Source of the DNA: Tenericutes bacterium MZ-XQ
GTDB lineage: Bacteria; Bacillota_I; Bacilli_A; Acholeplasmatales; Acholeplasmataceae
DNA: 64,000 nt
NCBI GenBank assembly: GCA_002838205.1
Contig: CP017950.1
Location: 1,618,858 to 1,682,857, forward strand
Direction of reading: 5' to 3'
Below are positions 1,906 through 2,074 of this stretch, one piece after another. The notes beneath the pieces are model-generated. The model was not told the origin of the DNA and ran no database searches. It saw nothing but the letters and a program-made list of their open reading frames with translations. Each line of letters opens with the position of its first letter. The stretch's first letter is position 1. A program made the translations under genes and the position numbers.

Positions 1906-1925
1906 GATAACACCTCCTTATATAT

Positions 1926-2074
1926 ATTATACACTATTTTTTTCGCATTTCTATACGAATTTGTTTATTTTTCGCTCCTAGGTGCGAATCCATCTAGTTT
2001 TCGCCTTATTAGCCGAAAACTAACAAATCGTGTAAATACACTTTAAATCGTGTATTTTAAAATGTAATCGTGTA
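1926..2074 (-). promoter_or_regulatory. satD promoter with two sets of phased repeats
   Basis: This lies in the gap 1906-2168, which has no gene. A TATAAT box lies at 1926-1931 on the minus strand. Upstream are three 18-base inverted repeats of form TTCGC-N9-CGAA at 1942-1959, 1971-1988 and 2000-2017, each exactly 29 bases apart. Next come three direct copies of AATCGTGTA at 2026, 2046 and 2066, each exactly 20 bases apart. The first palindrome covers the expected -35 position, so a bound protein would probably repress. Exact spacing suggests cooperative protein binding on one DNA face (20 bp is about two helical turns). Confidence 0.6.

Follow-up and report, generated by a model that had tools for sequence, protein, structure and literature searches.

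A tandem operator array with a conserved 29-bp pitch precedes satD genes and is predicted to be read by SatD itself

The satD gene of Tenericutes bacterium MZ-XQ is preceded by two sets of exactly spaced repeats, and the locus raises the question of whether these repeats form an operator and, if so, which protein would read it and to what end. The original prediction, made on the window (the whole stretch of 64,000 nucleotides of contig CP017950.1 analysed here), took both sets for one operator and proposed the C-terminal HTH-like part of SatD as its reader. In the literature searched we found no earlier account of an operator, regulation, fold or partner role for SatD. The repeats are placed exactly as described: TTCGC-N9-CGAA palindromes start at 1942, 1971 and 2000, at a 29-bp pitch, and AATCGTGTA copies at 2026, 2046 and 2066, with a 20-base period. 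The former are better noted as even palindromes of 18-20 bp, TTCG-N10-CGAA, with TTCG and CGAA as outer arms. Neither TTCGC-N9-CGAA nor AATCGTGTA recurs in the rest of the 64-kb window. In the 2.16-Mb genome single TTCGC-N9-CGAA elements occur at three other places, every one within long open frames, and paired TTCG-N10-CGAA at the 29-bp pitch (up to 2 mismatches) is found upstream of satD only. The nearest palindrome does cover the -35 area, as had been claimed, because a 17-bp spacer counted from the predicted TATAAT (Table 1) would place the -35 hexamer at 1949-1954, inside that palindrome.

Table 1. Features of the satD locus, in window positions
Feature	Positions	Strand	Remarks
DUF3307 gene, 242 aa, PF11750	513..1241	-	overlaps the end of satD; all-helical model, predicted membrane protein
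satD, 226 aa, PF16264	1225..1905	-	palm fold, residues 1-155 (D8, D50); C-terminal HTH, recognition helix 191-200
Shine-Dalgarno AAGGAGG	1913..1919	-	before the satD start codon; read directly
Predicted -10 element TATAAT, satD promoter	1926..1931	-	19 bp between its first base and the centre of operator 1
Operator 1, nearest satD	1941..1960	-	ATTCGTATAGAAATGCGAAA (satD strand); overlaps the -35 region
Operator 2	1970..1989	-	ATTCGCACCTAGGAGCGAAA; 29 bp from operator 1
Operator 3	1999..2018	-	TTTCGGCTAATAAGGCGAAA; 29 bp from operator 2
Three AATCGTGTA, 20-bp period	2026..2074		where variable cargo meets the region downstream of tRNA-Gly

The palindromes were followed through 90 non-redundant satD upstream regions, with relatives drawn from whole genomes and a named collection. 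Tandem palindromes were called at a score of at least 19/24 at a given lag, for lags 20 to 40, with dinucleotide shuffles as the control. At lag 29, 53% of the 90 regions passed versus 0.3% of the shuffles, and at each of the other lags the proportion of regions passing was 0-6%. The pitch therefore belongs to satD promoters as a family and is no local accident, and the palindromes of the window are the local instance of a family-wide satD operator. Half-site lettering varies by lineage and SatD clade, whereas architecture and pitch stay: TTCG is found in the relatives of the window satD, ATGCAT-like half-sites in many Clostridia, CAACC or GCAACC upstream of long SatDs and TGTCTnTTATAATAGACA-like sites at Streptococcus satD loci, with ATAGCT, ATAACC and ATTCGT as further types. 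The exact letters TTCGC-N9-CGAA, for which a search at other satD genes had been suggested, are not conserved in all Firmicutes; the arrangement is. The search scored even centres only, and by this automatic rule about a quarter of the loci have no clear even palindrome. Two loci encoding SatDs with Ser191 (L160 and L161) carry a shorter palindrome near the start codon, CACGATATATCGTG or a variant of it, as a further operator type. At another locus (L013) TTCG-type palindromes still lie upstream of a satD relative with several stop codons.

Operator similarity tracks SatD similarity (Mantel p<=0.001). At the level of whole domains the partial Mantel r is 0.20 for the HTH versus 0.23 for the N-domain, values that do not separate the two. 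The alignment columns most tied to the operator beyond overall identity fall mainly in the HTH, namely in the loop 172-176 and at residue 191, which opens the recognition helix in the AlphaFold2 model. With Gln191 the base at position -9 is A in 34/36 loci, versus 2/27 loci with any other residue (Fisher 4.5e-13); with Arg191 it is G in 4/6 loci, versus 1/57 without Arg (p=1e-4); and where SatD has neither of them, base -9 is mostly T. One locus with Pro191 (L060) has T at -9 and shares a deletion of 172-176 with the Gln clade, and the two exceptions to the Gln-A rule (L069 and L075) perhaps stem from a wrong register. On a tree of the N-domain, 4.5 out of 6 changes of residue class coincide with a change of base, compared to 0.94 expected (p=2e-4). 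Loci fetched later followed the same pattern, Gln going with A in the 4/4 new clear cases (L162, L163, L165 and L167) and Arg with G in 2/2 (L172 and L175). The rule linking residue 191 to base -9 holds, hence, in further loci and largely on the tree too. Contacts of glutamine with adenine and of arginine with guanine are classic among HTH proteins. Since the lettering tracks SatD and residue 191 predicts base -9, we consider it likely that SatD itself is the protein reading these operators at its own promoter, as predicted from the sequences. The HTH is likely the contacting part, a judgement drawn from single columns and few independent switches; to this extent the covariation upholds the reader originally proposed. 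Such a one-residue, one-base code (Gln-A, Arg-G), combined with a fixed pitch, would extend over Firmicutes and beyond.

Two other readings of the palindromes have to be weighed against binding by SatD. Unlinked regulators control many bacterial promoters, and a different DNA-binding protein of the host could likewise be the reader here. We regard this as improbable: the lettering follows the SatD clade and not the host, as in a genome whose two satDs have operators of different types (G088; contamination estimate 9%), the residue at 191 is informative about the operator base, and SatD is the only HTH protein encoded in the two-gene operon. The second reading dispenses with a protein altogether and takes the palindromes for hairpins or recombination sites (a terminator, an attC-like element or a CRISPR-like array), in keeping with their tandem arrangement close to a tRNA insertion spot and with inverted repeats that are perfect or nearly so. 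It is very improbable, given that the arrays are promoter-proximal and keep their pitch across many genomic settings, and that their letters covary with a recognition-helix residue of SatD.

The second repeat set has a different history. A genome search for pairs of AATCGTGTA with the 20-bp pitch returned 13 matches, versus 0 for a reversed-pattern control, and arrays of 2-5 copies lie at C1:1416753, 1422634, 1452534, 1615688 and 1617000 and at loci L141-L154; they were present in 4/4 other members of the genus searched. These arrays sit approximately 150-300 nt downstream of tRNA-Gly, tRNA-Leu or tmRNA genes, or between accessory genes, and their direction is constant relative to the next gene. 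The repeat can be drawn as an imperfect hairpin, CATTTTRAAAT-CGTGT-ATTTYAAAATG. At the tRNA-Gly locus three species have the tRNA side and the array in common and differ completely beyond, the divergence beginning exactly at the first AATCGTGTA repeat; the cargo is satD-DUF3307 here and something else in two relatives, one of which has HsdR of a type I restriction system as the following gene. The AATCGTGTA array marks the edge of an exchangeable region, genus-wide, and possibly a cassette boundary or insertion site. A part in the satD operator was rejected for it, as it recurs at many loci of the genus without satD and is missing from the other satD upstream regions examined; of the two sets first assigned to the operator, only the palindromes, with their conserved pitch, keep that place. 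A separate hairpin, GGTTTGATAC-AATT-GTATCAAACC, follows tRNA genes at 2163-2200 of the window and at a further locus (L007), occurs in another genus too, and looks like a repeated tRNA terminator.

What kind of protein would sit on such an array? The SatD of the window scores 138.9 bits with its family model (gathering score 29), and its AlphaFold2 model has a pLDDT of 94.9. The N-terminal domain adopts the palm fold of class III cyclases, GGDEF proteins, mCpol and Cas10, and its PDB matches comprise class III cyclases (Foldseek E 3e-4 to 8e-4; VIA Z up to 10.2), a cUMP synthase, GTP cyclohydrolase III and OptS. The metal-binding aspartates are kept (D8 in 87/90 and D50 in 88/90 SatDs), and SatD hence combines a palm-type cyclase fold with two metal-binding aspartates. 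On these structural models the chances that SatD has cyclase activity appear evenly balanced.

The second gene of the operon encodes a protein whose all-helical model is of high confidence (pLDDT 93) and had no Foldseek match in the PDB below E 1, the best VIA Z being 6.3. At the loci surveyed the DUF3307 gene lies directly downstream of satD, often overlapping it. In the 245 genomes surveyed, three DUF3307 genes were not next to a SatD recognised by Pfam, and each of them had a cyclase-like gene directly upstream; therefore, DUF3307 with a cyclase-like protein is the rule in this sample, and the pairing of satD and DUF3307 is near-obligate. At two of these loci (L155 and L157) the partner is a divergent SatD-like cyclase gene missed by the Pfam SatD model, and at the third (L156) DUF3307 lies between two cyclase-like genes, one of them a weak Guanylate_cyc match (E 0.01).

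With these components a switch can be outlined. One SatD dimer would occupy each palindrome, and adjacent dimers would bind at the fixed pitch, probably cooperatively. A 29-bp step corresponds to 2.76 helix turns, and a row of dimers would accordingly spiral around the DNA. Occupation of operator 1 would let SatD shut down its own transcription, and since in the window the -35 lies within the nearest operator, autorepression of the satD-DUF3307 operon is the best reading and, in our judgement, a likely one. A nucleotide, or a cyclic product of one, probably sets the state of SatD, as suggested by the cyclase fold and the retention of both aspartates. The translationally coupled DUF3307 protein would be the probable effector, restrained by SatD through dosage, contact or a cyclic nucleotide.

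Measured upstream from the -10 element, the centre of the nearest operator is reached at about 20, 28 or 37 bp, depending on the lineage. The last class (36-40 bp) is a large group whose operator lies just upstream of the -35, outside it, and could be taken to mean that SatD binds the operators yet activates the operon, all the more as its HTH profile is weakly like sigma region 4 (FliA, E 0.003). We consider activation unlikely, since operator 1 sits on the -35 both in the window and in its relatives, and the operator positions spread widely for an activator. Transposon studies of S. pyogenes further scored satD as the single essential accessory gene (PMC11323703), and essentiality, where the gene is present, would not be expected of a protein that activates a harmful operon. 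That satD scores as essential though accessory is more in line with a restraining than with an activating role, and we infer from it that SatD restrains a harmful partner; whether DUF3307 is in fact harmful without SatD we would put at even chances.

A competing view of the role accepts autoregulation by SatD but takes the pair for an ordinary envelope or acid-stress module with a harmless DUF3307. The name satD comes from the secretion and acid tolerance operon of S. mutans, as cited in PMC11323703, and the neighbours of satD are mixed and mostly housekeeping, with no clear sign of defence. On the other hand, satD is patchy, being found in 4-8% of the genomes in the sampled Bacilli sets and missing from the four other members of the genus, and this spread, along with essentiality only where the gene is present, looks like a restraint system. 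We hold the ordinary module to be a serious possibility that falls somewhat short of even.

Comparison with known systems brings out what a restraining SatD might resemble. In Panoptes a cyclase (OptS) restrains a toxic membrane effector (OptE) in an antitoxin-like manner (PMC12657218, PMC12657230). Both systems are two-gene operons whose first gene encodes a fold of the palm/cyclase superfamily and the second a membrane effector, predicted in our case, and SatD superposes on OptS (9pd0) with Z 8.9 and an rmsd of 2.5 over 106 residues. Unlike Panoptes, however, SatD has an HTH and an operator array, and DUF3307 is all-helical instead of the 2TM plus beta-barrel of S-2TMbeta effectors; a Pfam scan of SatD at E<=0.1 matched its own family alone and thus not the mCpol family PF18182. 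Pycsar shares the class III cyclase-like fold and the second gene, and Foldseek places the cUMP synthase 7r65 high among the matches of SatD, but SatD is an HTH fusion, satD scores essential where present, and Pfam matched no domain other than DUF3307 in the partner, hence no cyclic-nucleotide-binding domain. Autoregulated toxin-antitoxin operons have in common with satD-DUF3307 a DNA-binding domain in the product of the first gene, palindromic operators at their own promoter (assigned here by covariation), overlapping genes and essentiality only where present; they differ from it in the predicted enzyme fold of SatD, its large membrane partner and the fixed 29-bp operator pitch. The SatD of the Streptococcus sat operon likewise belongs to PF16264, and it has a DUF3307-type partner in the Streptococcus loci seen. 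PADLOC models gave no match at E<=1 for either SatD or DUF3307.

The pair falls outside Panoptes and Pycsar as defined, yet by analogy it may act like Panoptes. It is tempting to speculate, though only tentatively, on a guard in which the cyclase checks a membrane effector by a nucleotide signal and sets its own dose on the 29-bp array. If this were true, loss of the signal would free the effector and also raise expression of the operon. More broadly, the proposed switch gives a testable role to SatD and DUF3307, two protein families without one, and a possible reason why satD scores as essential in S. pyogenes, a species in which many strains do without the gene.

SatD was also sought in phages and plasmids. 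Phage records gave no tblastn match and viral contigs no confirmed relative; the plasmid search returned three matches, all weak, of which two were haloarchaeal and the third came from Arthrobacter. Phages have a relative of DUF3307: the protein of the window matches phrog_2470 (E 9e-14), a membrane protein of the moron/host takeover category.
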